A stretch of 36,724 nt of DNA, taken from the NCBI GenBank assembly GCA_013331635.1, contig DUFZ01000020.1, positions 15,790-52,513 of the forward strand, read 5' to 3'. The position numbers and the translations under genes were made by a program. Each line of letters begins with the position of its first letter. Positions within the stretch are counted from its first letter, which is position 1. This DNA is from Candidatus Woesearchaeota archaeon (GTDB lineage Archaea > Nanobdellota > Nanobdellia > Woesearchaeales > GW2011-AR9). The notes under the pieces are model-generated. The model was given only the letters and a program-made list of their open reading frames with translations. It was not told the origin of the DNA and did not search any database. This document shows positions 1,382-36,724 of this stretch, piece by piece.

Positions 1382-1397
1382 AGGACATGTAATTATT

Positions 1398-4893: not shown

Positions 4894-4995
4894 ATCTACT
4901 TTGCACATAATTATAGATTCCCGTTCGCTATTCTTTTTCATTGTGATCATTTAACTTCCCAAAACCTTAGTGAGCATGTAGGAGGCATATCCCGT

Positions 4996-6039: not shown

Positions 6040-6114
6040 TGCATCCCTGCCGGGCAACGACAAAGCAATATGCGACCCGACGGGTTATTTTGAGAAAAAC
6101 AAGGACCGTATATA

Positions 6115-7644: not shown

Positions 7645-7694
7645 TTTTGGTGCTTGTTTCGCAAGCAGTGATCTAATGGAATCCTGTAAATCAG

Positions 7695-9116: not shown

Positions 9117-9123
9117 AAACTTT

Positions 9124-9789: not shown

Positions 9790-9905
9790 GTCAACGATTA
9801 TCAATAATCAAAGCAGTCCAATGCTTTGTAGATAATTTCTGTCTGTAGTTTATATTTCGATTATGCTTTGGTAAATTCAAATATATCAAATATTTTGGTG
9901 AAGCA

Positions 9906-10790: not shown

Positions 10791-10844
10791 TAAATTGTCA
10801 CATGTCTTTTACCCTGATTGTGAACGCTACTTGGTTAGATTGAT

Positions 10845-11852: not shown

Positions 11853-11854
11853 TT

Positions 11855-11938
11855 ATCAATCTGACTATACAAAGTTACGGAACATGAATAAATACTTTTT
11901 TACGACCGGCGCCGATAGGTTACGCGCTGAGAATTTAA
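11855..11938 (+). pseudogene. 3' remnant of a methyltransferase gene, related to 21895-22917
   Basis: About 84 bases here align with the end of the intact methyltransferase gene at roughly 22830-22915. The match runs through CTGACTATACAAAG, AACATGAATAAATAC, GATAGGTTACGCGCTGAGAAT and the stop. If one T is removed from the run of six Ts at 11895-11900, the frame reads MNKYFLRPAPIGYALRI followed by TAA, against MEKYFLRPALIGCALRIFR in the intact gene. The remnant therefore has a one-base insertion and lacks the whole 5' part of the gene. Similarity goes on past the stop into a shared TGTGAGG. It marks where a methyltransferase gene once stood between two GT2 genes. Confidence 0.85.
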
Positions 11939-11965
11939 AGGTCTCAACTTTTAATGTGAGGTGTA

Positions 11966-12922: not shown

Positions 12923-12974
12923 AGTTCAGTCATTAGTTGGATCAAAGATCAATTATCTAAAAATAATATATTTT

Positions 12975-15215: not shown

Positions 15216-16071
15216 AGCCTGCAAGAAAACGGGAGATTGTTACATATTTGTGTACGACGTATAGGGTAAGTGAAAGACGTTCTTGCAGGCTGATCCGGTT
15301 AAGCCGGACAAGCAAGCAGTACAAGAGCAAAAGCAAAGATCAAAGGGCGTTGATACAGAGACTCAAAGAGTTGGCAGCATCTCGTCCACGATATGGGTGT
15401 AGAAGGTTATACATTTTGTTGAGGCGTGAAGAATGGAAAGTGAATCATAAGAGGGTGCATAGGCTATATAAGCTATTGGGATTACAGCTGCACATACGGA
15501 GAAAGAAAAAGAGGGCAAGCATTGCTCGGGTGCAGCAGGGCTTGCCCACAATGATAAATGAGCGATGGGGTTGGATTTCGTAGCGGATGCCTTAGAGAAC
15601 GGCCGCAAATTCCGTGTCCTGACCATTGTTGATCTGTTTAGCAGGGAATGTCTGATGACAGAAGCTGATTTTTCGTTCAGAGCCAACAAGGTAGTGAACT
15701 GCTTGGAGCGTTTGCGTCGGAGAGGGCATCTACCTAACGTGATTACAGTGGACAACGGAACAGAGTTTACCTCCCGAGTAATGGATGCATGGGCCTACAA
15801 GAACAAAGTGAAGCTTGATTTTATCAGGCCGGGCAGGCCGGTAGATAATGCTTTTATCGAAAGTTTTAACGGGCGGTTTAGGGACGAATGCCTGAATACG
15901 AAGGCATTTCATTCGATTGAGGATGCGAGGGAGAAACTTGAGTATTGGCTTTTAGACTATAATACCTTGAGGCCGCACAGCTCAATTGGCGATCTTACGC
16001 CATCTGAGTATGCCCAGAGGTTCAGGAACTTGGCCTTGGAAGGGGAAATCCTCAACCTACAAGTGGCATAG
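15209..16071 (+). pseudogene. IS3-family transposase OrfB, frameshifted
   Basis: The DDE integrase half of the transposase, in two pieces. The first frame runs from the slippery site through SRPRYGCRRLYILLRREEW (the HTH_21-type region) to NERWGWIS and stops at about 15581-15583. The second frame picks up at about 15565 with GLDFVADALENGRKFRVLT and runs to 16071. Family members read NERWSMDFVSDAL without interruption, so a one-base loss near 15558-15568 has broken the gene. The three catalytic acids are all in the second piece: Asp in LDF, Asp in DNGTEF and Glu in FIESFNGRFRDECL. This copy should be unable to move by itself. Confidence 0.9.
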
Positions 16072-16141: not shown

Positions 16142-16255
16142 ATGGCTGACCAAGCTAATGGTTTGTTGTCTAACTATTTAAGAGACCAGAGAATTTATGC
16201 AGCGTATCCATATGTTATAGGTAAAGTTCTTGATATCGGTTACTGGAAAATTTAA
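16142..16255 (+). pseudogene. Amputated SAM methyltransferase, 5' stub only
   Basis: An ATG at 16142, with GGGGATAGGTCC in front, opens 37 codons. They begin MADQANGLLSNYLRDQRIYA and continue AYPYVIGKVLDIG, then change to YWKI and TAA. The sequence up to LDIG is the standard lead-in of a class I methyltransferase, whose next residues should be CGxG. The gene is cut exactly inside its SAM-binding motif. The tail overlaps the next reading frame, the radical SAM protein, so the cut is also the joint to that gene. It stands directly downstream of the IS3-family element but is not caused by its ends, since the IS has clean borders and a target duplication 50 bases earlier. Confidence 0.82.
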
Positions 16256-17300
16256 TCAAATTTTAAAAAAAGTTTATTTCATCCTTAAGCTTAGAAAGCC
16301 TTTTCTTGTTCTGAAGATGCTTATGCTAACCATTCGTACATTGCTTTATAAACAAAGGCCTCCATTCCGACAAATTGAAATACAATCAACACTTGCGTGC
16401 AACCTGAGATGCACGCACTGTTCAGCAAAGAACTTTGAGATTAATGATGAAATGCTAAGTTTTGAAGATTACAAGAAAATTTCAAAGCAAGCTAAATATC
16501 ATGATAGTCCAATGCTTTCCTTTACTGGGGGGGAGCCATTACTCGATCCAAGGTTGGAAGATATTATTAGGCTGTTTGATACGCGAAGCATGCTGGTATC
16601 AATCACTACAAACGGGACGTTGTTGACTTTTGAGCGCGCAAGAAGATTGAAGCTAATAGGAGTTGATGGTTTTATGATTTCTCTCGATGGGTCAAATTCT
16701 CAAGCAAATGATATGATTCGAGGAGATGGGGTGTTTGAGAGCGTCATTAACGCAATACAGATTGCAAAGGGATTAGGTTTTTTTGTAATGATAATACACA
16801 CGCTAACCCACTTATCTATCAAGAATAATAATTTCAACGGCATCTTAAATCTTGCGCAAAAATTAGATATTCCCCTTCATGTAAGCCTTGTATCTCCAGT
16901 GGGGAATTTAGCTAATATGGATTTATTAGATGATTATATCCTTAGTAATGAGGACATACTCTATTTGGAGGATTGCCAAAAAAAATATCCGTTTCTTAGG
17001 AGAGATCTTGATGGTAATTATTTTCAAAGAGGATGCCCGGCAGGAGTTGAGAGGTTTGTTATTTCACCTTATGGTGATGTGATGCCTTGCACAAAGATAC
17101 AGGCTTCATTTGGAAACATTAAAGATGAACCTATGATAGATATTAGAAACCGAATGATTAATACAAAAATTTTTGACAATTACCCTTTGCTTTGCCTTGC
17201 GGCGGAAGATGACAACTTCTTAAATGTTTACATGCCTCGAACATTTAACCGAAAAGATTTGCCTATAGATTACAATGATTACTTTAAGGGATCCCTGTGA
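16230..17300 (+). CDS. Radical SAM protein with SPASM-like C-terminus
   Basis: A protein of up to 356 residues. The iron-sulfur motif is Cys57-x3-Cys61-x2-Cys64 in ACNLRCTHC, with TGGEPLLDP at 99-107 and FMISLDGSN at 148-156. Further cysteines at 269, 287 and 322 (RGCPAG, VMPCTK) suggest an auxiliary-cluster SPASM-type tail. Such enzymes modify peptides or small molecules by radical chemistry; in this setting a sugar or amino-acid substituent is likely. The start is unusual. The first in-frame start is a TTG at 16230 lying inside the preceding methyltransferase stub (AGG about 8 bases ahead). The next ATG, at 16317, would give 327 residues. The natural 5' end was probably lost at the joint. 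Its stop overlaps the next ATG by one base. Confidence 0.8.
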   Translation: MISVTGKFNQILKKVYFILKLRKPFLVLKMLMLTIRTLLYKQRPPFRQIEIQSTLACNLRCTHCSAKNFEINDEMLSFEDYKKISKQAKYHDSPMLSFTGGEPLLDPRLEDIIRLFDTRSMLVSITTNGTLLTFERARRLKLIGVDGFMISLDGSNSQANDMIRGDGVFESVINAIQIAKGLGFFVMIIHTLTHLSIKNNNFNGILNLAQKLDIPLHVSLVSPVGNLANMDLLDDYILSNEDILYLEDCQKKYPFLRRDLDGNYFQRGCPAGVERFVISPYGDVMPCTKIQASFGNIKDEPMIDIRNRMINTKIFDNYPLLCLAAEDDNFLNVYMPRTFNRKDLPIDYNDYFKGSL

Positions 17301-22933: not shown

Positions 22934-23389
22934 TCGTACTGCAAGGATATCAACCGACAGGAGTTGTATCCCGTGACTGGATTTACATTTCTGGGATATG
23001 AGTTTCGTCCACGCAAAGCGGTGGACAAATATGGTCGGGTGTATGTGAACTTTTCCCCTGCGGTGAGTCGTGAGGCACTCTGCATGATGCGGCAAACTAT
23101 CCGAAGCTGGCATATCCAGCTCAAATGTGATAAAAGGCTGGAAGACCTCTCAAACATGTTTAACCCAGTGCTTAGAGGTTGGTTAAACTATTACAGTCGA
23201 TTTCATGCCTCGGCAATGAAACCCATTTGGCTGCACATGAACGCTTTTCTGACTCGATGGCTTATGCGTAAGTACAAGCACTTGGCATGGCATAAAACCC
23301 GTGCACGGAAGGTGCTTGGCAAGCTTGCCGCATCTACATCGAAGGCATTTGTACACTGGGAGATTGGATATGCTCCTACGGCTGAATAA
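22934..23389 (+). pseudogene. Group II intron maturase, C-terminal part
   Basis: The frame reads SYCKDINRQELYPVTGFTFL, then GYEFRPRK, then GWLNYYSRFHASAM and LTRWLMRKYKHL. These are the standard end of the reverse transcriptase thumb and the maturase X domain, ending WEIGYAPTAE. No YADD catalytic motif and no HNH endonuclease domain are present. The piece covers about 150 of some 420-600 residues. There is no real start codon; a TTG at 22964 is in frame but has no family support. It is a relic. Confidence 0.88.
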
Positions 23390-23392
23390 TGG

Positions 23393-23426
23393 GAGCCGGA
23401 TGAGCCGAGAGATTCACGTCCGGTTC
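23393..23426 (+). ncRNA. Group II intron domain V
   Basis: The 34 bases begin GAGCCGG and end CCGGTTC, so the outer stem GAGCCGG pairs with CCGGTTC allowing a G-U pair. The inner part GAGCCGAGAGATTC carries the distal stem and a GAGA tetraloop. This is the catalytic hairpin of group II introns and sits at the normal distance after the maturase stop (23389). Its sequence looks intact even though the rest of the intron is lost. Confidence 0.85.
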
Positions 23427-23465
23427 TGCGAGGGGCTGGGGGTGCAATTCCCCCGGCCTACTTAC

Positions 23466-23941
23466 CGTTATATTCCGATGCGGAAAGGCTTTCTATACTT
23501 AATGGCTGTAATGGACTGGTGCAGCCGAAAGATTTTAAGCTGGAGGCTCAGCAACTCGCTTGATACTGAGTTTTGTATAGCAGCATTACAGGAGGCATTG
23601 GCCAAATACGGCAGGCCTGCAATATTCAATACTGATCAGGGAAGTCAATTTACGAGCCTCGAGTTTACGCAGATACTTAAGGACGCTGATGTAAAAATCT
23701 CAATGGACGGCAAGGGTAGATGGAGAGACAACGTAATGATCGAGCGGCTGTGGCGCTCTCTGAATATGAGTGTGTCTATCTGAACGCATTTGAAACGGGC
23801 AGCGAGGCAAGAAATGGTATTGGAAAGTGGATCAGACTGTACAATGAAGAGCGGCCTCATTCTGGTATTGACGACAAAACGCCGCATGAGGCATACTGGA
23901 AACTGCCACGCGCAGGTTATCCAGTAAAACTGGTGGCATGA
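23466..23941 (+). pseudogene. IS3-family transposase OrfB, 5'-truncated and frameshifted
   Basis: The frame opens after the intron with YIPMRKGFLYLMAVMDWCSR, then LSWRLSNSLDTEFC and NTDQGSQFTSLEF (second catalytic Asp), then GRWRDNVMIERLWRSL with the catalytic Glu. At about 23760-23764 one A appears to be missing: the frame passes from WRSLN to the neighbouring frame, which continues SEYECVYLNAFETGSEARN and ends RPHSGIDDKTPHEAYWKL to the stop at 23941. The N-terminal half is absent. It cannot make a working enzyme. Confidence 0.88.
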
Positions 23942-24626: not shown

Positions 24627-26498
24627 ATGTGCGGTATTATAGGTATTGCCTCAAAATCTCCTGTTTCTGATCGAGAATGGCTTGCTATCGGACGTGACTC
24701 CATGCGGCATCGAGGTCCCGATGATATCGGGGAATGGTGGTCCGTGGACGGGTGCGTGGGTTTGGCGCATCGGAGGCTTTCTATCATAGATTTGTCGCCT
24801 GCCGGCCATCAGCCGATGTTGGACACCACCGGTGCGATCTATATAGTCTTCAATGGGGAGATCTACAACTACCAGGATTTGAAGAAGGAATTACAGTCCT
24901 TAGGGCATGTTTTCAGTTCAACAAGCGATACGGAAGTCATGCTTGCGGCGTATCGGGAATGGGGAACCGACTCCCTCCGGCATCTCAACGGCATGTTCGC
25001 GTTCGGGATATATGATCAAAAAGCGCGGAGGCTTTTCCTGGCGCGGGACAGGGTGGGAGAAAAGCCTCTTTTTTATGCGGTTGTCGGCGACGCACTCTGT
25101 TTCGCATCGGAGCTAAAGGCTTTGATGGCATATCCGGCCTTTCCGCGGCGCATAGATCCGGAAGCGTTGGATTGCTATTTGACGTATGGATATGTGCCGG
25201 GCAACCTATGCATTATGAGTGGCGTGAACAAATTACCACCTGCGCACGCGCTCTTGTTCGATTTGGAAAGCGGTCAATCACGGTTGTGGCGTTACTGGCA
25301 GTTGCCGGAATTGGATGGCAGCGCTACAGCGGATAAGATAGATGAAGAAGCCTTGCTTAATGAGATGGAGACCCTTTTGGAAGATGCCGTCCGGCGCCAA
25401 TTGGTGGCCGATGTGCCGGTAGGGGTGCTCCTCAGCGGCGGGGTGGATTCCAGCCTGGTGACGGCAATGGCGGTGCGTGCTGAGGCGAAGGTCAGCACCT
25501 TCACCATTCGTTTCCCAGGTTATGGCGCGTACGATGAAACAGCGCACGCTCGATTGATTGCCCGGCACTTCGGTACGAAGCATATCGAATTAGATGCCGC
25601 TGATGTCAATGTTGACCTTTTGCCTATTTTGGCCCGACAGTTTGATGAGCCGATGGTGGATTCATCCATGATTCCGACATATCTCGTTAGTAAACTGGTA
25701 CGTCAACACTGCATTGTGGCTTTGGGAGGCGATGGTGGCGATGAACTATTCGGCGGTTATGGATATTACAGCCGTCTACTGTCGCTACAGAAAAGCCTGG
25801 GCTGGATTCCATGGAGTCTGCGCTTACTCGTGGCCAAATCTGCGGAAGCCTTGTTGCCGGTTGGCTTCAAGGGACGCAATTGGCTGCAAGGTCTGGATGT
25901 GGATTTACAGCGAGGACTACCGCTGATTGCTTCACATTTCGACCGTAGTACACGGCAGAATTTGATGGTATGGCGAGACTCTCGGGCATTGGTAGCCGAG
26001 AGTATTCGGAAACGACTTATTCCTCAGTCGGATAATCTGTTGCAGCGGTCGACACGCATGGATTTCGAGAACTATTTACCTGAGGACATTTTGGTCAAGG
26101 TGGATCGCACCAGCATGCTGAACTCGCTGGAAGTCCGTGCACCATTTCTAGACTACCGGATTATTGAATTTGCTTACGGCAAGGTGCCGTCGTATCTGAA
26201 GGCTACGCCGACTTCCAGTAAAGTGCTGCTGAAAAAGCTGGCGATGCGTCTTCTGCCTGTGGAATTCGATCATCAACGCAAGCAGGGGTTCTCCATTCCA
26301 CTCGGGTCATGGTTGCAAGATGGACCGTGGAAGCAATTTTTTCATGAAACGCTTTTGGGATCAAATGATATGCTTTTTAACCGCCAGTGTGTGAACGACT
26401 TGCTGGATGGTCAGACCAAAGGCCGGGCTAACAGCGAACGTTTGTTTGCCTTGGTCTTTTTTGAATTATGGCGGCGGGAATATGGTGCTAGCTTATAG
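24627..26498 (+). CDS. asnB: Asparagine synthetase (glutamine-hydrolysing), AsnB family
   Basis: A full-length 623-residue amidotransferase. Met is followed by Cys2 in MCGIIGIA, the class II glutaminase nucleophile. RHRGPDD at about 28-34 and the FNGEIYN loop near 74-80 complete the glutaminase site. The synthetase half carries the PP-loop SGGVDSS at 270-276 and a later ALGGDGGDELFGGY. The enzyme takes ammonia from glutamine and adds it to an ATP-activated carboxylate. In O-antigen loci, AsnB-type proteins (such as WbpS) are thought to amidate uronic acids, so a sugar carboxylate may be the substrate instead of aspartate. It is distinctly GC-rich next to its neighbours. A stub of a glycosyltransferase gene starts one base after its stop. 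Confidence 0.93.
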   Translation: MCGIIGIASKSPVSDREWLAIGRDSMRHRGPDDIGEWWSVDGCVGLAHRRLSIIDLSPAGHQPMLDTTGAIYIVFNGEIYNYQDLKKELQSLGHVFSSTSDTEVMLAAYREWGTDSLRHLNGMFAFGIYDQKARRLFLARDRVGEKPLFYAVVGDALCFASELKALMAYPAFPRRIDPEALDCYLTYGYVPGNLCIMSGVNKLPPAHALLFDLESGQSRLWRYWQLPELDGSATADKIDEEALLNEMETLLEDAVRRQLVADVPVGVLLSGGVDSSLVTAMAVRAEAKVSTFTIRFPGYGAYDETAHARLIARHFGTKHIELDAADVNVDLLPILARQFDEPMVDSSMIPTYLVSKLVRQHCIVALGGDGGDELFGGYGYYSRLLSLQKSLGWIPWSLRLLVAKSAEALLPVGFKGRNWLQGLDVDLQRGLPLIASHFDRSTRQNLMVWRDSRALVAESIRKRLIPQSDNLLQRSTRMDFENYLPEDILVKVDRTSMLNSLEVRAPFLDYRIIEFAYGKVPSYLKATPTSSKVLLKKLAMRLLPVEFDHQRKQGFSIPLGSWLQDGPWKQFFHETLLGSNDMLFNRQCVNDLLDGQTKGRANSERLFALVFFELWRREYGASL

Positions 26499-26546
26499 AT
26501 GATCCTTGGTATAGATGCATTCAACATACGTGGTGGTGGGGTATAG
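26499..26546 (+). pseudogene. Amputated GT4 glycosyltransferase gene, 15-codon 5' stub
   Basis: Immediately after the asnB stop, an ATG at 26499 reads MILGIDAFNIRGGGV and then TAG. This is the recognisable N-terminus of a family of GT4 glycosyltransferases (MILGIDASNIR-GGGVTHL) that commonly follows asnB. Everything after GGGV is gone, and the next gene begins with a GTG that overlaps this stop by one base. The stub is short, so the claim rests on a near-exact motif and its position. Confidence 0.7.
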
Positions 26547-27772
26547 TGGGTAAAGAGAATACGATTTTAGTGATGAGCGACTATTATCTGCCTGGTTTCA
26601 AATCAGGTGGATCTGCACGTACTATTGCAAATATTATCGATCAACTTGGCAATGAAGTTACTTTTAAAGTGGTCACTAGGGATTGTGACCTTGGTGATTC
26701 TGTTCCCTATCAGAACATACTATATAACAAATGGAATCAGGTTGGAAAAGCTCAAGTGTATTATCTTCCTCGTAATAAAATAACGAGTTCGATTATTAAA
26801 GAAATAATTGGTATAACACACCATTCTGTTTTATATTTAAATAGTTTCTTCTCTTTATACTTCACCATATATCCATTGTTATTGAGGTTTTTTCGGATAC
26901 TGTCACAAAAAACACCCATTATTATAGCACCACGTGGGGAACTTGCTACTTCTGCCCTTTCAATAAAGTCTCTTAAAAAGAAGATGTTCATAAAAGCCGT
27001 ACAAGTCCTCGGACTCTATCGATCCGTTATTTGGCAGGCATCTAGTGTGTACGAGGAAAATGATATACGTAGACTTTTTGGGCAAACGCCAATTGTGAGA
27101 GTGGTTCCAGATATGCCTCCTCAAGTGAATGTCTCGAATTTAAACACTCCACGTAAAGAAAAAATTCCCGGGAATTTAAGTATAATTTTTTTATCACGGA
27201 TAGCGCGTGTCAAGAATCTGGATGGAGCCCTTTCAATTCTCAGTTCTATAAAAGGAAATATTTCTTTTAATATATACGGCCCCATAGAAGATTCTGCATA
27301 TTGGAAGGAATGTAATAAAATTATATTAAAGATGCCTTCCAATATTAAAGTATATTACCATGGGGAAATTTCGCATGATAAGGTGTACGATACTTTAAGA
27401 CTGCATGATTTATTTTTTTCTCCTACCAATGGCGAAAATTTTGGTAATGCTATTCTGGAGGCATTGCTTGCTGGGTGCCCGGTTGTAATTAGTAATCGCA
27501 CTCCATGGAGAGAATTGCACAAAAAGGGAATAGGGTGGGACATCCCTCTGGAAAGTCCGGAATTCTTTGGTCGGATTATACAGGAAATGATCAATATGGA
27601 TAGGGTGGCTTTTGATGAACTATCGGGGAATGCTTTTCGATTTGCCCTGCAGTTTATTCAAGATACGGAGTTACTTGAAATCAATAGGCAATTATTTGCA
27701 AGGAATCTGAAGGGTCAGTATGAGCCATCACCAGTGAAGCATGATACAGTTAATCGGGAGGAAATATTCTAA
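26546..27772 (+). CDS. Glycosyltransferase family 4
   Basis: A 408-residue GT-B enzyme. The N-terminal acceptor domain has VMSDYYLPGFKSGGSARTIAN with the glycine-rich loop at about 18-23. The C-terminal donor domain has IIFLSRIARVKNLDGALSIL and the EX7E motif ENFGNAILE at Glu297 and Glu305, followed by ALLAGCPVVISNRTPW. It uses an NDP sugar at the cytoplasmic face. The start is a GTG at 26546 overlapping the stub's stop, with GGTGGTGGGG just upstream as a possible ribosome site that lies inside the stub. The stop overlaps the next ATG by one base, so the following oxidoreductase is coupled to it. Confidence 0.9.
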   Translation: MGKENTILVMSDYYLPGFKSGGSARTIANIIDQLGNEVTFKVVTRDCDLGDSVPYQNILYNKWNQVGKAQVYYLPRNKITSSIIKEIIGITHHSVLYLNSFFSLYFTIYPLLLRFFRILSQKTPIIIAPRGELATSALSIKSLKKKMFIKAVQVLGLYRSVIWQASSVYEENDIRRLFGQTPIVRVVPDMPPQVNVSNLNTPRKEKIPGNLSIIFLSRIARVKNLDGALSILSSIKGNISFNIYGPIEDSAYWKECNKIILKMPSNIKVYYHGEISHDKVYDTLRLHDLFFSPTNGENFGNAILEALLAGCPVVISNRTPWRELHKKGIGWDIPLESPEFFGRIIQEMINMDRVAFDELSGNAFRFALQFIQDTELLEINRQLFARNLKGQYEPSPVKHDTVNREEIF

Positions 27773-28917
27773 TGGATTATACAACTCAGACTTTAGGGAT
27801 TAAGATTAAAAAGGTATTAAGATACATGAGATTATTTGGGGTGAATCGTACCCTCATAAAAATATACGGACAATATCACATGAAGAAAAAATACGAATGC
27901 CTTCCTGCTCTAAAAATACCGCGCAGTGGTCGAAATGTCGGTATAATTGGATGTGGAAATTTTGCTTTTACCAATATTGCTTATTATTTAAATAAAAACT
28001 ACGGCAAAGTAATTCATGCAGCTGCGGATATAAATATTCATGCAGCAGCGTCTCTTTATGAAAAATATGATTTAAATTACTACACCGATGATGCCAATAA
28101 GCTTATTAACGACCCTGCAATTGATTTATTATATATTGCTTCCAATCATGCTTCACATGCAGAGTACGCCATTAAGGCGTTAAATGTTGGCAAGAGTGTT
28201 CATATTGAAAAACCTCATGTTGTAAGTGAGGACCAATTAATACGACTGTGTCAAGCAATGGCAGTTTCATCGGGGCGAGTTAATATTGGGTTCAATCGTA
28301 CCAGAAGCAGGTTTGGCCGGGAGATCAGAAAGGCATTGGGTTCCCAAACTGGTACGGGGATGTACAATTGGTTTGTTGCAGGACATGAGATACCTTCGGA
28401 TCACTGGTATTATGCTAAGGAGGAAGGAGGACGTGTTTTAGGTAACTTATGCCACTGGACAGATTTTATTTATAGCTTAGTTGATTCAAGAAGCCGATAC
28501 CCATTAACTATCACGCCAGTCCGAGCGGTTAAGCCAGACTGCGGGATAGCAGTCAATTATAAGTTTGGCGACGGCTCAATTGCTGTAATCACGTTCTCTG
28601 CTGGCCCTACATTTGAGGGCGTGAGAGAGCGTTTATCTGCTCAACGCGGTAATATTTTGATCTCAATGGATAATTTTAAGACTTTAATAATTGAAGAAAT
28701 GGACAAAAAGATTAAACTTTCCAATTTCTTTAATGATCACGGACATGAGCATAATATTATGGCTGGTTATTCTCTGCTTTCCTCTAATCAGGGTTACTCA
28801 GCCGAATATGTTTGGGAGACAGCGCAACTTTTTCTTAGAACTAAAGAAGCACTGGAGGAAAATATGGTAACAGTGCTCAGTGGCTATGATAGCCTTATTA
28901 CTTCAAAACCTTACTAA
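27772..28917 (+). CDS. Gfo/Idh/MocA family oxidoreductase
   Basis: A 381-residue NAD(P)-dependent oxidoreductase with an unusual N-terminal extension of about 55 residues ahead of the Rossmann motif NVGIIGCGNF at 55-64. IEKPH near 145-149 gives the catalytic lysine of the family's EKP motif. The C-terminal alpha/beta domain includes GGRVLGNLCHWTDFIYSL. Enzymes of this family oxidise or reduce sugar hydroxyls, often on nucleotide sugars. It is followed two bases later by a two-domain oxidoreductase that carries another Gfo/Idh domain, and a heparinase-family gene is close by, an association I have seen recurring in polysaccharide loci. Confidence 0.9.
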   Translation: MDYTTQTLGIKIKKVLRYMRLFGVNRTLIKIYGQYHMKKKYECLPALKIPRSGRNVGIIGCGNFAFTNIAYYLNKNYGKVIHAAADINIHAAASLYEKYDLNYYTDDANKLINDPAIDLLYIASNHASHAEYAIKALNVGKSVHIEKPHVVSEDQLIRLCQAMAVSSGRVNIGFNRTRSRFGREIRKALGSQTGTGMYNWFVAGHEIPSDHWYYAKEEGGRVLGNLCHWTDFIYSLVDSRSRYPLTITPVRAVKPDCGIAVNYKFGDGSIAVITFSAGPTFEGVRERLSAQRGNILISMDNFKTLIIEEMDKKIKLSNFFNDHGHEHNIMAGYSLLSSNQGYSAEYVWETAQLFLRTKEALEENMVTVLSGYDSLITSKPY

Positions 28918-28919
28918 TA

Positions 28920-31076
28920 ATGAAACAACTCATTCAATCCTATAAAACTGGCGAACTCGGTCTTTTTGAAGTCCCTCCCCCCGTATGCGGTAATACTGGC
29001 GTATTGATAAATACGATAGTTTCACTCGTTTCGGCTGGAACAGAGAAGATGATTGTTGATATCGCCAAAAAATCTCTTTTCGGCAAAGCAAGGGCTCGCC
29101 CTGATCTTGTAAAGCAGGTAATCAATAAGATGAAACAGGAAGGGATAAAGAATACCCTTGAGAAGGTGTTTAACAAGCTCGATACACCTATTCCTCTTGG
29201 TTATTCATGTGCGGGTACCGTGGTGAAAGTCGGTGAGAGCATTTCAGGCATATCACTTGGCGATAGGATTGCCTGCGGCGGGGCCGGATATGCAAGCCAT
29301 AGCGAGATTAATTATATCCCTAAAAATCTATTTGTAAAAATACCGGATAGTGTTGACGATCTTGATGCCTCCTTTGTCACGGTAGGGGCAATAGCGCTGC
29401 AAGGCGTTCGGCAGGCTGAGCCAACCATGGGAGAAAAGATTGCTGTCATCGGCTTGGGACTAATAGGACAGTTGACAGTGCAATTGCTCAAGGCCAACGG
29501 CTGTAAAGTCATGGGCTCTGATATTGATCCCAACAAGCTATTATTGGCAAAAAGCCTCGGGGCTGATATGGTCTGCACGCCCGACCAATTTATAGAGGCG
29601 GCGGCTGAGTTCAGCAATGGCTATGGATTGGACAAAGTAATAATAACTGCTTCAACATCAAGTAATCAGCCTGTAATCGATGCTGGTGAGACTGCTCGCC
29701 ATCGGGCAAAGGTGGTGGTGGTGGGCATGGTGGGCATGGATGTGCCTCGCAATCAGTATTACAAAAAAGAACTCGATCTTCGCCTTTCGATGGCGTATGG
29801 TCCTGGGAGATATGACCCTGATTATGAGGAGAAGGGTATCGATTATCCTTTTGCCTATGTTCGTTGGACCGAACAGAGGAACTTTGAGGCGTTTCTCGGG
29901 CTTGTTGCGGAAGGCAAAGTTACTCCCAAGTCGCTTATAACTCACCAATTCAATTTTAATGATGCGCTAAAAGCATATGATTTGATCGAAGGTAAGTCGA
30001 ATGAGAAATATCTGGGAATCATTCTGACGTATCCTGGGGAAACACGCGTCTCAAGAAAATGCATTCAAATTTCTGATAAAACCATACGATCAGACAACAT
30101 GAGAATAGGATTATTGGGTGCCGGCAATTTTACTAAAGCTGTCATATTGCCGCATTTGAAGAAGTTGGGAGGAGTTGAGCTTGTTGGGGTATGTACTGCT
30201 ACTGGCATCAGCGCCCATTCTACAGGAAAGAAATATGACTTCAAGTATATAACGACAGATGCAGATGAATTGATAAAAAACAATGATATTAATGTGGTGT
30301 TTATTACTACAAGGCACAACACGCACGCGGAGTACGTTATAAAGGCTTTAAAGGCAGGAAAACATGTTTTCACTGAGAAGCCTCTCTGTATCGGAGAGTC
30401 GGAATTAAGCGAGATCAGAGATGTATACTTTTCACTAAGAACTCAACACTTACCCCTGCCATTGCTGATGGTAGGTTTTAACAGGAGGTTTTCCCCTCTG
30501 GTTGCCAGGATGAAAGAGGTGGTCCGAGATGCACCGATGTCGATCACATATCGTGTAAACGCCGGTATTATACCGAAAGATTCATGGATACAGGACGGGG
30601 GAATCGGCGGAGGCCGAATCGTCGGGGAGGTATGCCATTTTATCGATACCTGCTCTTTTCTGACCGGTTCGGAACCTCTGTCTGTTTTTGCCTCCTGTAT
30701 CCGCAAGATGGATACTTCAGTTCCTGATGAAGACAATGTCAGCATTGTTCTTACGTTTGCTAATGGTTCGACGGCAACCATCCAGTATTTTGCCTATGGC
30801 AATCGGCAAATGCCCAAGGAGTTCATTGAACTTTTTGCCGGTAATACTGCCATGCAGATGACCGACTTTCGCGAACTGGTTATCTTCAGTGGGAACTGTA
30901 AGGAGAAAGTGAAAAGATTTAATCAAGATAAGGGTTTTAAGACAGAATTCTCCTCTTTCCGAGAGGGCATAAATAGCGGTACCCCTCCCATATCGTTCGA
31001 GTCTCTCTATACCACGACGAAGGCGACTTTTGCCATCTTGGAATCTCTCCGCACTGGTGCGGAGGTGCTGATTTGA
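28920..31076 (+). CDS. Bi-domain oxidoreductase: zinc-type alcohol dehydrogenase fused to Gfo/Idh/MocA
   Basis: A 718-residue fusion. Residues 1 to about 370 form a medium-chain alcohol dehydrogenase fold, with PLGYSCAGTVVKVGESISGI, GDRIACGGAGYA and the NAD loop GLGLIG at 178-183. The Gfo/Idh/MocA part starts at Met394 with MRIGLLGAGNFT, has the EKP motif at 486-488, and continues with GGIGGGRIVGEVCHFID. The two parts may act in turn on one substrate, for example oxidation then reduction at different carbons of a sugar. The usual zinc-binding Cys/His set of alcohol dehydrogenases is not obvious. This architecture is known as a bi-domain oxidoreductase in surface polysaccharide loci, but its reaction is, to my knowledge, not established. 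Confidence 0.9.
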   Translation: MKQLIQSYKTGELGLFEVPPPVCGNTGVLINTIVSLVSAGTEKMIVDIAKKSLFGKARARPDLVKQVINKMKQEGIKNTLEKVFNKLDTPIPLGYSCAGTVVKVGESISGISLGDRIACGGAGYASHSEINYIPKNLFVKIPDSVDDLDASFVTVGAIALQGVRQAEPTMGEKIAVIGLGLIGQLTVQLLKANGCKVMGSDIDPNKLLLAKSLGADMVCTPDQFIEAAAEFSNGYGLDKVIITASTSSNQPVIDAGETARHRAKVVVVGMVGMDVPRNQYYKKELDLRLSMAYGPGRYDPDYEEKGIDYPFAYVRWTEQRNFEAFLGLVAEGKVTPKSLITHQFNFNDALKAYDLIEGKSNEKYLGIILTYPGETRVSRKCIQISDKTIRSDNMRIGLLGAGNFTKAVILPHLKKLGGVELVGVCTATGISAHSTGKKYDFKYITTDADELIKNNDINVVFITTRHNTHAEYVIKALKAGKHVFTEKPLCIGESELSEIRDVYFSLRTQHLPLPLLMVGFNRRFSPLVARMKEVVRDAPMSITYRVNAGIIPKDSWIQDGGIGGGRIVGEVCHFIDTCSFLTGSEPLSVFASCIRKMDTSVPDEDNVSIVLTFANGSTATIQYFAYGNRQMPKEFIELFAGNTAMQMTDFRELVIFSGNCKEKVKRFNQDKGFKTEFSSFREGINSGTPPISFESLYTTTKATFAILESLRTGAEVLI

Positions 31077-32206
31077 GCGCAGCTGTTATTTTTAATGCAG
31101 GTTCGTGCTGTATTGACATTATCGCGGGCGCTCGCCCAAATTTCATGAAGATCTCCTCTATTATTAGGGCGCTTCAACTACATCAACAGCAGAGTGGTCG
31201 TCTGTCATATCGACTGGTCCATACCGGCCAGCACTATGATGCCCGTATGTCGGGAGATTTCTTTGTGCAGTTGGGCATCCCCGATCCTGATGTGAACCTA
31301 GAGGTAGGCTCCGGCACACAGGCGGAGCAGGCAGCGGCCATTATGGTGCGCTACGAAAAGCTCTTGCTTGAACAACGCAGCAATCTTTGCTTAGTGGTGG
31401 GGGATGTTACCTCGACAATGGCATGTTCCATCGCAGCCCAAAAGCTATGTATTCCGGTAGCGCATGTAGAGGCTGGTATTCGATCGGGTGATTGGACCAT
31501 GCCTGAAGAGATTAACCGTATGGTAACCGATGCCATTACTAATTACTTTTTCACTACCAGTGAATCAGCCAACCGGAATCTACGCCGTGCGGGTGTGCCG
31601 GAGGAAAGTATCTTTTTTGTTGGCAACACGATGATCGATACCTTACTGGCTAACATGGAGCGATTGAAGCCTCCAGCGTTCTGGGACGAATTTGGGTTGG
31701 AAAACGGCAGATACTTTGTGTTGACCTTGCATCGTCCGGCGAATGTGGACGTAGAGGTGCAGTTAATCGCTTTATTGGAGGCGATTGGGAAAGGTAGTCG
31801 TGGGTTGCCTGTGGTGTTTCCGTGCCATCCGCGCACTGCAAAGACATTGAACCCCATAAAGAAGCTTCCGGAAAATCTGCGTTTAGTCGATCCCCAGCCA
31901 TATCTGGAGTTCAACTATCTGGTGAAGCATGCGAAGGCGGTGATTACCGATTCAGGAGGAATCACGGAAGAAACGACGGTTATGGGCGTTCCCTGCATGA
32001 CACTGCGCGATACAACGGAGCGGCCCGAGACTGTGACTATCGGCACCAATGAACTGCTGGGAATTGATCCTAAGAGTATTCGTCCCGCAATGGACCGGCT
32101 CTTTGCTGGAGCTTGGAAGACCGGCGCCATCCCTGAGAAATGGGACGGCAAGACCGGCGAAAGGATTGTCGAAGTTCTGGATCGATTGCTGTGCGGAGTC
32201 CGATGA
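31073..32206 (+). CDS. wecB: UDP-N-acetylglucosamine 2-epimerase (non-hydrolysing)
   Basis: A 377-residue enzyme of standard length. It has GARPNFMKIS at 19-28, HTGQHYDARMSGDFF, VVGDVTSTMACS, VAHVEAGIRSGD and the C-terminal TDSGGITEET substrate loop, all diagnostic of the WecB/MnaA family. It converts UDP-GlcNAc to UDP-ManNAc, or a similar 2-acetamido sugar nucleotide (the WbpI/FnlC type act on 2,3- or 6-deoxy relatives). The first residues are diverged. The start is a TTG at 31073 overlapping the previous stop, with GGAGGTG at 31063-31069 in front; no better codon is available. Its stop overlaps the next start by four bases. Confidence 0.93.
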   Translation: MSAAVIFNAGSCCIDIIAGARPNFMKISSIIRALQLHQQQSGRLSYRLVHTGQHYDARMSGDFFVQLGIPDPDVNLEVGSGTQAEQAAAIMVRYEKLLLEQRSNLCLVVGDVTSTMACSIAAQKLCIPVAHVEAGIRSGDWTMPEEINRMVTDAITNYFFTTSESANRNLRRAGVPEESIFFVGNTMIDTLLANMERLKPPAFWDEFGLENGRYFVLTLHRPANVDVEVQLIALLEAIGKGSRGLPVVFPCHPRTAKTLNPIKKLPENLRLVDPQPYLEFNYLVKHAKAVITDSGGITEETTVMGVPCMTLRDTTERPETVTIGTNELLGIDPKSIRPAMDRLFAGAWKTGAIPEKWDGKTGERIVEVLDRLLCGVR

Positions 32207-33843
32207 CGGTTTCAAATGTCTTGAGATGGTTTCATACCATACGGCATCTTCGCCCTGTTCAGATATACGGACGTTTGTGGTTTAGATTACATCATCCCTT
32301 GATTGATCTCTCCCCCGCGCCTCCAGCACGTATTCTCAATGCAAAAGCAGTGCTGACTGGATGGCGAGGATCCTCTCTTCTGTTCCCTATGGTTTTTCGA
32401 TTTTTAAATGAAGAACATGAGCTTGCAGGTGTTGATGATTGGGACAATCCATCAGTCGGCAAGCTCTGGCGCTATAATCTTCATTATTTTGATGACTTGA
32501 CGGCGGAGGGGGCGGAAACTCGCACTAAGTGTCATCATGAATTAATGCTACGATGGGTTGATGAAAATCCGCCTGGTCACGGTATGGGTTGGGAGCCTTA
32601 CCCGACTTCCCTGCGAATGGTGAATTGGATCAGGTGGTCCTTGGCCGGGGGTATCCTTTCGCCTGAATGCATGCAGAGTCTTGCTGTGCAAGCGCGCTGG
32701 CTGTCAGAAAAGCTGGAACACCATCTTCTCGGCAACCATCTTTGGGCCAATGCAAAAGCGCTGGTGTTCGCAGGCATGTTCTTTGATGGATCAGAAGCTG
32801 TTAGATGGTTAACCGTGGGTCTGAAGTTGCTGCGTCGCGAGTTGCAGGAGCAGGTGCTGGAGGACGGGGGGCATTTTGAGCGCAGCCCGATGTATCATGC
32901 TATCGTGCTGTCTGACTTGTTGGACTTAGTGGAATTGTCTGTAATCTATCCTGATGCACTTCCGATGAATGATGTGTCTGCTTGGCGTGAGATCATACCG
33001 CGCATGCTGTATTGGCTGGCGGTAATGACCAATCCTGACGGTAAGATTGCACTATTTAATGACGCTGCATTCGGCATTGCGCCACGGCTTAGGGACTTGG
33101 AAGACGGCGCTAAAGCGTTGGGGATTGTTTTTGACAATTACCTGGAAGGTCCTATGCATAATTTACCAGAGACTGGTTATGTTCGATTGCAAAAAGGGCC
33201 TGCAGTTGTGATCGCCGACCTCGGCGAAATCGGTCCGGATTATATGCCCGGTCATGCTCACGCTGATACATTAAGCTTTGAAATGTCATTGTATGGACAG
33301 CGGGTGATTGTGGATACCGGCACTTCGCGCTATGACGTATCCGACGAGCGCATGATGCAGCGGGGAACCAGTGCGCACAATACAGTGCAGGTGGATGAAG
33401 AGGATTCGTCAGAGGTATGGAGCAGTTTCCGCGTTGCGCGACGTGCCCGGCCTTTTGACCTGACGGTCCGGCAGGACCATAACTTATTGATAATTGACGC
33501 TTCCCATGATGGGTATAAACGCTTAAACGGTAGCCCTGTACATCGAAGACACTGGAGTCTTAGTGACAGAAGTCTCCTGATACAGGACATCATTGATGGG
33601 AGCTTTACAAATGCAGTGTCGCGCTTTCATTTTCATCCTGATCTGATGGTGGTAGCTGAGGACAATTGTGAAGCTGGTACATTACGGCTTTTACACGGAG
33701 AAAAAATTATATGGCATGCTAAGGGGGGGGGCAAGAGTTTGGTGACAAGTACATATCATCCTGAATTTGGCCTGTCCATTCCCAATCGCTGCCTGAATGT
33801 AGAGTTTGAAGGGAACATCTGTGAAGTAAAATTTACATGGTAA
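32203..33843 (+). CDS. Heparinase II/III family protein
   Basis: A 546-residue protein. The first half is an alpha-helical toroid-like domain (KLWRYNLHYFDDL, GWEPYPTSLRMVNWIRW, LLGNHLWANAKAL, and SPMYHAIVLSDLLDL with Tyr231-His232). The second half is a beta-sandwich of the heparinase II/III type with GHAHADTLSFEM holding His351, His353 and Asp355. Relatives are polysaccharide lyases, but no signal peptide is visible, so this one is probably cytoplasmic. That makes a biosynthetic role, or a role on lipid-linked intermediates, more likely than degradation. I use the ATG at 32203 (ATGA overlap with wecB) over longer upstream options that overlap wecB by 67 bases. Confidence 0.88.
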   Translation: MTVSNVLRWFHTIRHLRPVQIYGRLWFRLHHPLIDLSPAPPARILNAKAVLTGWRGSSLLFPMVFRFLNEEHELAGVDDWDNPSVGKLWRYNLHYFDDLTAEGAETRTKCHHELMLRWVDENPPGHGMGWEPYPTSLRMVNWIRWSLAGGILSPECMQSLAVQARWLSEKLEHHLLGNHLWANAKALVFAGMFFDGSEAVRWLTVGLKLLRRELQEQVLEDGGHFERSPMYHAIVLSDLLDLVELSVIYPDALPMNDVSAWREIIPRMLYWLAVMTNPDGKIALFNDAAFGIAPRLRDLEDGAKALGIVFDNYLEGPMHNLPETGYVRLQKGPAVVIADLGEIGPDYMPGHAHADTLSFEMSLYGQRVIVDTGTSRYDVSDERMMQRGTSAHNTVQVDEEDSSEVWSSFRVARRARPFDLTVRQDHNLLIIDASHDGYKRLNGSPVHRRHWSLSDRSLLIQDIIDGSFTNAVSRFHFHPDLMVVAEDNCEAGTLRLLHGEKIIWHAKGGGKSLVTSTYHPEFGLSIPNRCLNVEFEGNICEVKFTW

Positions 33844-33976: not shown

Positions 33977-35182
33977 ATGAGAATACTCGTTATTTCATTT
34001 TATTTTGAGCCTGATTTGTGCGCTGGCTCTTTCAGGACATCATCATTTGTTAAGGCTCTGAGGAACGCTATCACTGCCGAGGATACAGTTGATGTTATTA
34101 CTACCCTGCCCAACCGCTATGGTTCCTATCGCGTGGAAACCTCGGAACTAGAAATAGACTCGAACATAACAATCAGGAGAATCAGAGTTCCTTTTCATAA
34201 AAGCGGTTTTTATGATCAGGCAAAATCTTTTTTTGTATATTTTTTTAATTCATTGCGATTTGTTAGGAGTAGGGAGTATGATGTTGTTTTTGCAACATCA
34301 AGTCGTCTGTTTAGTGCTTTTCTCGGAGCGGTGATTTCGAAATGTAAGCGTAAGCCGCTGTATCTTGATATAAGGGACATATTCACTGATACGCTGCAAT
34401 CAATTCTGGGGAAAACAAAACTTAAATACATTATCCCGGTTTTTCTTCTTGTCGAGAAGTTTGTAATGGAAAGCGCAGGTAAGATTAATCTAGTCTCAAA
34501 AGGTTTTGATGGTTACTTTTTGAAGAAGTATAAGAAGAATTACTCTTATTTTACCAATGGGATAGATGATGAATTTATAGAAGACAGTTTAATTGCGGTT
34601 GCCGTTGCTCCTATAGCCACTGGGAAAATTATATTTACATATACGGGCAATATAGGAGAGGGGCAGGGCCTTGAGAAGATAGTCCCTTACATTGCTGCGA
34701 GATATAAAAATATTGAATTTATTATTATAGGTGATGGAGGTCGAAAAGGTACTTTAGAAAAAAGTATAACTCATTTGCATAATGTAAAGATCATAGCACC
34801 GATAAATAGAAAAGATTTAATAGCTTTTTACAAAAAAAGTGATATTCTTTTCTTGCATTTAAATAGTTATGAGGCCTTTAAAAAAGTGCTTCCCTCAAAG
34901 ATTTTTGAGTATGCAGCTATGTATAAGCCGATTATCGCGGGAGTCGATGGATATTCAAAGGAATTTTTAGAGGAGAATCTTCCTGATAGTCTAATCTTCC
35001 GGCCATGTGATATTGACGATTTTTGCATGAAATATGAGAACTATTCTGGCATCGTAGATGTGAAAAGCAGGAAAAGGTTCATTGCTAAATTTTCACGGCA
35101 GAATATTATGAATGAAATGGCAGGAGACTTTCTGGACTTTTCCCGTAAAACCGTGAAGGCAGTGCCTAAAAAGACGCAATGA
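33977..35182 (+). CDS. Glycosyltransferase family 4 (WbuB-like)
   Basis: A 401-residue GT-B enzyme. The N-terminus MRILVISFYFEPDLCAGSFR is typical of WbuB-type GT4 proteins that have a PPD/EPD-GS-xR loop. The middle has FTYTGNIGEGQGLEKIV and FIIIGDGGRKGTLEK; the donor site has LPSKIFEYAAMYKPIIAG, the family's version of the EX7E helix. WbuB-like enzymes add amino-deoxy sugars to a lipid-linked GlcNAc-type acceptor. The 133-base spacer before it is AT-rich and contains only a weak hairpin (about 33908-33934), so a promoter or internal terminator there is possible but not supported. The stop overlaps the next ATG. Confidence 0.9.
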   Translation: MRILVISFYFEPDLCAGSFRTSSFVKALRNAITAEDTVDVITTLPNRYGSYRVETSELEIDSNITIRRIRVPFHKSGFYDQAKSFFVYFFNSLRFVRSREYDVVFATSSRLFSAFLGAVISKCKRKPLYLDIRDIFTDTLQSILGKTKLKYIIPVFLLVEKFVMESAGKINLVSKGFDGYFLKKYKKNYSYFTNGIDDEFIEDSLIAVAVAPIATGKIIFTYTGNIGEGQGLEKIVPYIAARYKNIEFIIIGDGGRKGTLEKSITHLHNVKIIAPINRKDLIAFYKKSDILFLHLNSYEAFKKVLPSKIFEYAAMYKPIIAGVDGYSKEFLEENLPDSLIFRPCDIDDFCMKYENYSGIVDVKSRKRFIAKFSRQNIMNEMAGDFLDFSRKTVKAVPKKTQ

Positions 35183-36156
35183 GAGTTTTGGTCACAGGAG
35201 CTAACGGCTTTGTGGGAAGCTCACTATGTAAGACATTATCTGGGAGGGGATATTTTGTAAGGGCAGCAGTAAGATCTATGGAGAAGTCTTTCTCTCCCGC
35301 TGATGCTATGGAATGTATTCAGGTCGGTGAAATTGGTCCCAACACTGATTGGGCTGTTGCGCTGCGCGGCATTGATGTTGTTGCTCACCTCGCCTCACGA
35401 GTGCATATAATGCGAGATGCCTCCACCAATCCGTCTGATGACTACCGGAGAGTCAATATTGAGGGGACAAGGACGCTTGCAGAAGCTGCAGTGAAAGCGG
35501 GGGTGAGTCGTTGTATTTTTTTAAGTACTATAAAAGTAAGCGGAGAACAAACAACTGATCGGGCCTTTGTTGAAACTGATATATCTCCTAAGATGGATCC
35601 TTATTCCATATCAAAAAATGAGGCTGAGTTAGCATTAAATAGTATTGCTGATAAATTAGGCTTGGAAGTTGTTATTATACGCCCACCGCTTGTTTACGGA
35701 CCGGGGGTGAAAGCTAATTTTTTGCGATTGATTGATATGGTAAACAAGAATATTCCGTTGCCACTGTCCTTAGTGAGGAATAAACGAAGCATGATTTATG
35801 TTGGCAATCTTACTGACGCAATCATAAAGTGCATTGAACACAAAAGTGCAGCTAATAAAACTTTTTTAATTAGTGATGGACAGGATATTTCTACTTCTGA
35901 ATTAATAAAGATGATAGCAAAGGCAATGGGTAAAAAGCCAAGTCTATTACCGTTACCACCCTCCTTAATAAAGGCCCTTGGTAAACTTGCAGGGAAAAGC
36001 TTGGAAGTGGATCGCCTGGTCGGTTCTCTGCGTGTTGACAGCACCAAAATCAGAAAAATGCTTGGATGGAAGCCGCCTTTTACTATAGAAGAAGGGATAT
36101 CTGAAACAGTTAGATGGTATATGGACATGAATAAAGACGCAACAAAAAGAGGTTAA
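35179..36156 (+). CDS. NAD-dependent epimerase/dehydratase, WbpV/FnlB-like 4-keto reductase
   Basis: A 325-residue extended SDR with the NAD loop VTGANGFVG at 5-13, HLASRVHIM at 70-78, a FLST strand with Ser116, and the YSISK catalytic pair Tyr142-Lys146. PPLVYGPGVKANF and KPPFTIEEGISETVRWY are typical of the group that reduces UDP-4-keto-6-deoxy sugars to QuiNAc- or FucNAc-type products. It starts in an ATGA overlap with the GT4 gene. The next gene is a 4,6-dehydratase that would make the 4-keto substrate, which supports the role. Which epimer is made cannot be told. Confidence 0.85.
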   Translation: MRVLVTGANGFVGSSLCKTLSGRGYFVRAAVRSMEKSFSPADAMECIQVGEIGPNTDWAVALRGIDVVAHLASRVHIMRDASTNPSDDYRRVNIEGTRTLAEAAVKAGVSRCIFLSTIKVSGEQTTDRAFVETDISPKMDPYSISKNEAELALNSIADKLGLEVVIIRPPLVYGPGVKANFLRLIDMVNKNIPLPLSLVRNKRSMIYVGNLTDAIIKCIEHKSAANKTFLISDGQDISTSELIKMIAKAMGKKPSLLPLPPSLIKALGKLAGKSLEVDRLVGSLRVDSTKIRKMLGWKPPFTIEEGISETVRWYMDMNKDATKRG

Positions 36157-36157
36157 T

Positions 36158-36724
36158 ATGGATTCTGTATTGAAATTAATAGGCAGAGATGCTGAGTTAT
36201 TTGATGAAGACATTAAGTTGCATGATAAGAAAATTCGTGAACTTGTTAAGGGTAGCCATTTTCTTGTGATCGGAGGCGCTGGGTCGATTGGTCAGGCGGT
36301 TGTCAAAGAAATATTCAAGAGAGACCCCAAAGTTCTTCATGTTGTTGATATCAGTGAAAATAATTTGGTTGAGCTTGTTCGTGATATTCGGAGCTCGGTG
36401 GGCTATATTAAGGGGGATTTTCAGACCCTCCCTCTCGATTGCGGTTCGGTAGAGTATGAGGCCTTTATTGGTAGTCAAAGGCCTTATGATTATGTCCTCA
36501 ACCTCTCAGCTTTGAAGCATGTTCGAAGTGAGAAAGACCCATATACTCTTATGCGTCTTATTGATGTCAATATATTTAATACGGATAAGCTTGCTGGCCA
36601 GGTAGCTCAAGGAAATAGTAAAAAGTATTTTTGTGTTTCAACGGATAAGGCGACAAACCCGGTGAATATGATGGGAGCTTCTAAAAGAATAATGGAAATG
36701 TTTTTGATGCGGCGAAGTCTTGAA
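36158..36724 (+). CDS. UDP-sugar 4,6-dehydratase (FlaA1/WbpM type, without membrane domain), partial
   Basis: The first 189 codons of a gene that runs off the window. AGAGG at 36148-36152 sets the ATG at 36158. About 33 leading residues precede the nucleotide loop FLVIGGAGSIG at 35-45. Further on are DYVLNLSALKHV, the SDR-type strand with Ser161 in VSTDKA, and NPVNMMGASKR, where a Met-x3-Lys pair (Met172, Lys176) replaces the usual Tyr-x3-Lys, as in FlaA1, PglF and WbpM. These enzymes turn UDP-GlcNAc into a 4-keto-6-deoxy sugar nucleotide. No transmembrane N-terminus is present, so this is the short soluble form. Confidence 0.9.
   Translation, partial: MDSVLKLIGRDAELFDEDIKLHDKKIRELVKGSHFLVIGGAGSIGQAVVKEIFKRDPKVLHVVDISENNLVELVRDIRSSVGYIKGDFQTLPLDCGSVEYEAFIGSQRPYDYVLNLSALKHVRSEKDPYTLMRLIDVNIFNTDKLAGQVAQGNSKKYFCVSTDKATNPVNMMGASKRIMEMFLMRRSLE

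Follow-up and report, generated by a model that had tools for sequence, protein, structure and literature searches.

The closest described counterparts of the genes analyzed here are zbdP (PA14_23420) and hepP (PA14_23430) of Pseudomonas aeruginosa PA14, which lie 8 bp apart and encode proteins of 78 kDa and 61.9 kDa, the former combining a medium-chain dehydrogenase/reductase (MDR) domain with a Gfo/Idh domain (PMC5732420). Both genes were listed under O-antigen biosynthesis by Lee et al. (PMC1794565). Here we analyzed a stretch of 36,724 nucleotides (the window) assigned to a Candidatus Woesearchaeota archaeon (GenBank assembly GCA_013331635.1, contig DUFZ01000020.1, positions 15,790 to 52,513 of the forward strand), which contains a bi-domain oxidoreductase gene (BID) and a gene for a heparinase II/III-fold protein (HEP); zbdP-hepP shows the same domain architecture and gene order. 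On balance we favor the view that the product of the BID-HEP module is an L-configured 2-acetamido uronic acid, most probably N-acetyl-L-galactosaminuronic acid (L-GalNAcA), for a Wzy-type surface polysaccharide, formed by the reactions and in the order proposed below.

The O-antigen of PA14 has the repeat ->4)-alpha-L-GalNAcA-(1->3)-alpha-D-QuiNAc-(1->3)-alpha-L-Rha-(1->, in which QuiNAc is N-acetylquinovosamine and Rha is rhamnose (PMC2997053). The corresponding cluster, of the O10/O19 type, comprises PA14_23370 and PA14_23380, annotated as UDP-N-acetylglucosamine (UDP-GlcNAc) 2-epimerase and UDP-N-acetylmannosaminuronic acid (UDP-ManNAcA) dehydrogenase (PMC9611778), the O-antigen polymerase gene wzy (PA14_23400; PMC12654532), a wbpK-like gene (PA14_23450), wbpL (PA14_23460) and wbpM (PA14_23470) (PMC2658670). 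The annotations of PA14_23370 conflict, as PMC12654532 labels it a 6-dehydrogenase, at variance with PMC9611778. Uronic acids of the L-galacto and D-manno configuration differ at C3 and C5, as described by King et al. for the 3-amino analogue (PMC2279256).

The way from D-gluco to L-galacto needs inversions at C2, C3 and C5. L-GalNAcA is the 3,5-epimer of D-ManNAcA, which WecB and WecC together produce. QuiNAc of PA14 can be ascribed to wbpM/K/L, and rhamnose to the housekeeping rml genes. Because WecB acts at C2 and WecC makes the carboxylate, the inversions at C3 and C5 are left over, and ZbdP and HepP are the remaining candidates for them in the PA14 cluster, in which no other identifiable gene is left.

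In the window, a gene for an MDR-Gfo/Idh protein likewise lies by a gene for a signal-less heparinase-fold protein within a polysaccharide locus, with wecB in between (Table 1). Published PA14 primers (PMC5732420) translate to the HEP motifs GWEPY, PLSLRI and LSPMYH, the last one in the active site, and to the BID motifs RVLAID and KRGRIV. As in PA14, genes of the wbpK/V-wbpM type follow downstream and wecB is part of the cluster; unlike the window, PA14 carries wecB, together with wecC, at the 5' end of the cluster and not between zbdP and hepP, and has wbpL. The window, for its part, contains an extra stand-alone Gfo/Idh gene (GFO1) and has neither wecC nor wbpL on its contig; a wecC/wbpL is predicted past the contig end. 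We infer that the product of the window equals the L-GalNAcA of PA14.

The original prediction had read positions 27772 to 33843 as a module of Gfo/Idh, bi-domain oxidoreductase, WecB and heparinase-fold genes, and the open reading frames and the Pfam and TIGRFAM matches agree with this reading. All four genes are open on the plus strand. The end of the module had been set too early: the unit runs past 33843, and the following gene of glycosyltransferase family 4 (GT4) belongs to the recurrent module. The spacing from the upstream GT4 gene (GT4a) through GFO1, BID and wecB to HEP is only -4 to +2 bases, BID starting 2 bases past GFO1 and wecB overlapping the end of BID, so that these genes look like one translationally coupled operon. 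HEP probably starts with the ATG at 32203, where its start and the wecB stop share 4 bp (ATGA); the start given by the open reading frame caller (32140) lies inside wecB. The position of the short-chain dehydrogenase/reductase (SDR) gene is also occupied in three of the surveyed loci (L060, L062, L065) and by PA14_23450 (PMC2658670). The window ends where the contig ends, at 52513.

Table 1. Features of the BID-HEP locus (coordinates refer to the window).
Feature	Position	Strand	Evidence and remarks
AsnB-like amidotransferase	24627..26498	+	TIGR01536 462 bits, over cut-off; operon context
GT4 glycosyltransferase (GT4a)	26546..27772	+	PF00534 60 bits; overlaps Gfo/Idh start; operon context
Stand-alone Gfo/Idh/MocA oxidoreductase (GFO1)	27772..28917	+	PF01408 65 bits; EKP motif
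Bi-domain oxidoreductase BID, ZbdP-like	28920..31076	+	PF00107/PF08240 in N half; PF01408 and PF22725 in C half
wecB, non-hydrolysing UDP-GlcNAc 2-epimerase (C2 inversion)	31073..32206	+	TIGR00236 equivalog, 301.6 bits (cut-off 210.15)
Heparinase II/III-fold protein HEP, HepP-like, 546 aa	32203..33843	+	PF16889 58.3 bits (cut-off 22); PF07940 184.5 bits (cut-off 24)
HEP Asn178	32734..32736	+	aligned with Asn240 of Pedobacter heparinase III; kept in 37/37 homologues
HEP Tyr231	32893..32895	+	aligned with Tyr294 of heparinase III; kept in 37/37 homologues
HEP His351	33253..33255	+	aligned with His424 of heparinase III; kept in 33/37 homologues
GT4 glycosyltransferase, WcaI/WbuB-like	33977..35182	+	NCBIfam PRK10307 58.8 bits; recurrent HEP neighbour
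SDR reductase/epimerase, WbpV/WbpK position (first sugar QuiNAc or N-acetylfucosamine, FucNAc)	35179..36156	+	PF01370
WbpM/CapD-like 4,6-dehydratase, N-terminal part	36158..36724	+	PF02719 87.7 bits; cut by contig end

The two Pfam matches of HEP cover an alpha/alpha toroid and a beta-sandwich domain. A profile built from 27 HEP homologues matched the heparinase III structures in the PDB with E values of 5e-38 to 1e-32 (5jmd, 5e-38; 4mmh, 5e-35). An AlphaFold2 model calculated from four sequences reached a predicted local distance difference test score (pLDDT) of 43, which is too low for a fold search. The Asn, Tyr and His residues of HEP align with those that we take, in numbering and in catalytic role, to be the active-site residues of heparinase III. 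The lyase-fold protein had been predicted to lack a signal peptide, and a hydrophobicity analysis indeed found no export signal in HEP: the best 11-residue Kyte-Doolittle mean within the first 45 residues is 0.54, compared with 1.9-2.6 for OmpA, MalE and DsbA. Instead, the N-terminus contains the sequence HTxRxLxxxQ, which is conserved in signal-less relatives, and a conserved basic stretch, which in the window protein has a net charge of +5 over residues 1 to 33. The basic N-terminus could favor contact with membrane lipid-linked substrates.

For PA14 HepP a different function has been published. The recombinant protein cleared heparin-agarose, a hepP mutant was attenuated in C. elegans and in biofilm formation, and Dzvova et al. 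named HepP a virulence heparinase (PMC5732420), a claim that the original prediction did not consider. HEP would accordingly be a true heparinase-type lyase directed against host glycosaminoglycans. We regard this as very unlikely, since the export signal is missing in the window protein as well as in PA14 HepP, for which PSORTb found none and the localisation was given as unknown (PMC5732420). Moreover, HEP sits in loci for polysaccharide synthesis and also occurs in environmental Acidobacteriota and Elusimicrobia as well as in haloarchaeal relatives, and the phenotypes in biofilm formation and in the nematode would be explained by a loss of O-antigen.

BID consists of an MDR domain (residues 1 to about 380) and a Gfo/Idh domain (residues about 393 to 712), with a mean column identity of 54% in an alignment of 30 members. 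Invariant in this alignment are S38-G40-T41-E42, G94-Y95, E486-K487-P488 and H573. In the MDR half the usual zinc ligands are missing, with SAGTE and GY in the place of C-G-T/D and GHE in all 30 homologues, and the Gfo/Idh half retains the EKP motif, a GExCHF motif and the second catalytic His (H573). A zinc-free MDR domain is also found in enoyl reductases. Together with the lyase residues kept in HEP, this would suit a cytoplasmic lyase with an eliminating or editing role: HEP would perform a beta-elimination and the MDR domain of BID would reduce the C4=C5 bond to a 4-deoxy uronic acid, or HEP would trim faulty lipid-linked chains. This is less likely still, because the terminal residue of a lipid-linked chain has a free 4-hydroxyl, which is a poor leaving group, and because the L-GalNAcA of PA14 is 4-substituted and thus retains O4 (PMC2997053).

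GFO1 shares 29% identity with the C-terminal domain of BID. It adjoins BID in L058, L066, L067 and L078 and is present in only part of the BID loci; we consider it auxiliary to the module. The closest PDB entry to the window WecB is the UDP-GlcNAc 2-epimerase 4neq (275 bits, versus 230 for the WbpI-type 8sxv).

The gene-neighbourhood survey that the original prediction had proposed revealed a strong association of BID and HEP. Among 369 gammaproteobacterial genomes, 21 contained HEP and 31 contained BID, and both occurred together in 16, where 1.8 were expected (Fisher p=1.2e-15). In loci picked by HEP or BID matches, BID is located at most two genes upstream in 21 of the 38 HEP genes and a GT4 gene at most two genes downstream in 21/38. 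The recurrent unit [Gfo/Idh]-BID-HEP-GT4 was found in Gammaproteobacteria, Acidobacteriota (Bryobacteraceae, L001) and Elusimicrobia (Elusimicrobiaceae, L082). It is often followed by WbpV/K-WbpL-WbpM, the genes for QuiNAc or FucNAc as first sugar (L060, L062, L065). In L062, the locus that was scanned, WbuX-HisH-HisF precede the unit, and the genes clustered in L060 and L065 correspond to those of L062. In L117, L119 and L123 the unit is followed by a small sugar transferase, an acetyltransferase, an aminotransferase and a dehydratase, which by size and order only can be read as PglC/D/E/F. Many of the BID/HEP loci contain wecB and/or wecC, and wecB lies between BID and HEP in the window, L059 and L069. 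An AsnB gene is frequent near BID. A haloarchaeal HEP relative is located beside GT4 genes and wecB. A pattern-based search for HEP loci yielded three genome loci and none in viral contigs.

The proposed pathway would start from UDP-GlcNAc, which WecB would invert at C2 to UDP-ManNAc, and a WecC-type dehydrogenase would oxidize C6 to give UDP-ManNAcA. In the cytoplasm, the Asn/Tyr/His set of HEP would abstract the proton at C5, adjacent to the carboxylate, and reprotonation of the carbanion on the opposite face would invert C5 and lead from D-manno to L-gulo. HEP would epimerize instead of cleaving because the 4-hydroxyl is free, so that there is no C4-linked sugar or good leaving group to expel. 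The two NAD(P) domains of BID would oxidize and then re-reduce one ring hydroxyl, and the resulting inversion of C3 would convert L-gulo to L-galacto; alternatively, and almost as plausibly, this step could pass through a short-lived 4-keto intermediate in the manner suggested for WbmF/G/H. HEP and BID may act on either a UDP-sugar or a lipid-linked sugar. The neighboring GT4 would add the finished uronic acid to undecaprenyl-linked QuiNAc or FucNAc. With GT4 acting after the unit, L-GalNAcA would become the second sugar on QuiNAc, which fits the PA14 linkage. The idea that a cytoplasmic lyase fold acts during synthesis on a uronic acid intermediate, already part of the original prediction, is thus supported by the BID-HEP-GT4 synteny, the catalytic residues, the missing signal and the recurrent wecB/wecC. 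The accompanying statement that the product is not established needs to be modified. Among the openly licensed literature we found no paper that assigns the steps to L-GalNAcA, and nothing relevant on a bi-domain oxidoreductase or a heparinase in connection with O-antigen, but the PA14 counterpart is part of a cluster whose O-antigen has a known structure, and this points to L-GalNAcA.

Several observations weigh against this pathway. BID occurs without HEP and HEP without BID, which also fits two separate steps. Four of the 37 homologues lack His351; they form a single divergent HEP clade, located next to BID. No UDP-sugar dehydrogenase is encoded on the contig of the window, and the only one of the bin is located on contig C86. 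In PA14, the transposon mutants of zbdP and hepP differ in their biofilm and nematode phenotypes, which would not be predicted for two steps of one pathway. The clearing of heparin-agarose suggests lyase activity of HepP, with the weak weight of a plate assay using one purified preparation. Finally, the PA14 cluster also holds PA14_23390, PA14_23410 and PA14_23440; the latter two presumably encode the two glycosyltransferases that the trisaccharide needs.

In the divergent clade (L117, L119, L120, L123) the His351/His353 pair is lost, yet the loci contain BID and GT4, and these proteins may use a different chemistry. Where BID genes lack a strong HEP match, some adjoin a diverged HEP instead (L114-L117, L119, L123).

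HEP genes without BID were found in Sulfitobacter, on E. coli plasmids in the order wecB-wecC-...-HEP-GT4, and on four E. coli chromosomes (L130, L131) in the O-antigen region beside gnd. Conversely, BID without HEP lies beside AsnB and other sugar genes in L118, L124, L126 and L127. Both arrangements speak for a variant in which HEP is a C5 epimerase but a sugar other than L-GalNAcA is made: by itself HEP would give N-acetyl-L-gulosaminuronic acid (L-GulNAcA) or another L-uronic acid, and BID would act on a different sugar or carbon. BID might, for example, work through a transient 4-keto intermediate with HEP as the 3,5-epimerase, by analogy with what has been suggested for Bordetella WbmG/WbmH; the WbmF/G/H proposal takes such a 4-keto path to an L-galacto uronic acid (PMC2279256). 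We hold this variant to be unlikely, although it deserves serious consideration, because alone it explains neither the strong linkage of BID and HEP nor the L-GalNAcA of PA14. For the BID-less wecB-wecC-...-HEP-GT4 clusters themselves an L-GulNAcA-type residue is predicted. In the HEP tree, BID-linked and BID-free members are not separated, suggesting repeated gain or loss of BID.

The plasmids of E. coli and Enterobacter that carry the BID-less cluster (H2-H8) include one IncY conjugative plasmid. The genes for N-acetyl-L-altrosaminuronic acid (L-AltNAcA) of Shigella sonnei and Plesiomonas were considered as well and rejected; no Shigella was among the organisms listed for the plasmid matches, and the papers assign other genes.

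The bin that contains the window (1.3 Mb, 91 contigs) looks archaeal because a type II methionyl aminopeptidase was found over the cut-off. The tetranucleotide signature of the contig carrying the window (C63) is unlike that of the other contigs (mean correlation 0.42 versus 0.67), and a search of 278 genomes of the same phylum revealed no other genome with HEP. Contig C63 is probably foreign to the bin, either as a mis-binned bacterial contig or as an acquired island. The function of the module is independent of this origin, but the bin is not a reliable place to look for the missing wecC.

Contig C63 carries mainly polysaccharide genes and remnants of mobile elements. Fragments of IS3-family transposases are present at 15248-16071 and 22964-23783 of the window, the second one next to a fragment of a group II intron maturase domain (GIIM, PF08388), and these fragments speak for the history of a mosaic island. 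Further genes encode a glycosyltransferase of family 11 of the alpha-1,2-fucosyltransferase type (window 9906-10790, PF01531 75 bits) and two radical-SAM enzymes within the polysaccharide island (window 2257-3645 and 16230-17300), one B12-binding by family match and one MoaA/SPASM-like. NeuB-, CMP-sugar synthetase- and PtmA-like genes (locus L012 10918-14426 and window 608-2219) indicate that this contig also encodes a pathway for a nonulosonic (sialic-like) acid. L012 also contains an E1 alpha/beta pair within the sugar island (6399-8405; PF00676, PF02779/PF02780), and no E2 was seen there. On contig C80 of the bin (locus L026, 7331-8479, minus strand), lipoyl and E3-binding domains are fused to a PglD/NeuD-type sugar N-acyltransferase that replaces the E2 core; the neighbours within 4372-14669 include E1 alpha/beta, lipoate and LPD genes, wecB, an aminotransferase and a Gfo/Idh gene. 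This locus looks like a 2-oxoacid dehydrogenase complex that would pass acyl groups directly to an amino sugar.

It is quite possible, though short of probable, that a cytoplasmic C5 epimerase with a polysaccharide-lyase fold, acting during synthesis on a nucleotide- or lipid-linked amino-uronic acid, and a self-contained two-domain C3 epimerase form a previously unassigned route to L-GalNAcA that is widespread in bacteria and perhaps present in archaea, and that leads to L-GulNAcA where the oxidoreductase is missing. If true, the missing steps to L-GalNAcA, an O-antigen sugar of the widely used strain PA14, would be filled in, and HepP would no longer count as a secreted virulence heparinase. 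Many signal-less genes annotated as 'heparinase/alginate lyase family' and 'zinc-binding dehydrogenase' would be re-annotated as sugar-building enzymes, and the module would clearly exemplify how the fold of a degradative lyase can be turned to synthesis. Surface sugars would become predictable from genes: L-GalNAcA from BID plus HEP, L-GulNAcA from HEP alone, and acetamidino forms in combination with WbuXYZ.

Compared with known systems, HEP shares the fold, by profile, and the aligned Asn/Tyr/His residues with heparinase III and other Hepar_II_III lyases (PDB 5jmd, 4mmh, 4fnv). These lyases are secreted and degradative, whereas HEP lacks the export signal of a secreted glycosaminoglycan lyase and occurs in biosynthetic operons. 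BID does not have the Cys and His-Glu ligands of zinc-dependent MDR alcohol dehydrogenases but has the EKP motif and second catalytic His of Gfo/Idh/MocA dehydrogenases. Dermatan sulfate epimerase, a eukaryotic enzyme of heparinase-like fold, acts at the polymer level and epimerises uronic acid at C5 rather than cleaving; it is not among the PDB profile matches of HEP and serves as an analogy only. In the synthesis of UDP-N-acetyl-L-fucosamine by FnlA/FnlB/FnlC, the inversions at C2, C3 and C5 are split over several enzymes, including a 2-epimerase of the WecB family. The Fnl pathway differs from the BID-HEP proposal in its 6-deoxy sugar, its SDR 4-keto chemistry and the order of steps. Bordetella WbmF/WbmG/WbmH have the same stereochemical task as that proposed here: on the way to UDP-L-GalNAc3NAcA, a D-manno uronic acid is turned into the L-galacto form by 3,5-epimerisation (PMC2279256). 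All three Wbm enzymes are SDRs and have no relation to BID or HEP, and the one SDR of the window occupies the WbpV/K position.

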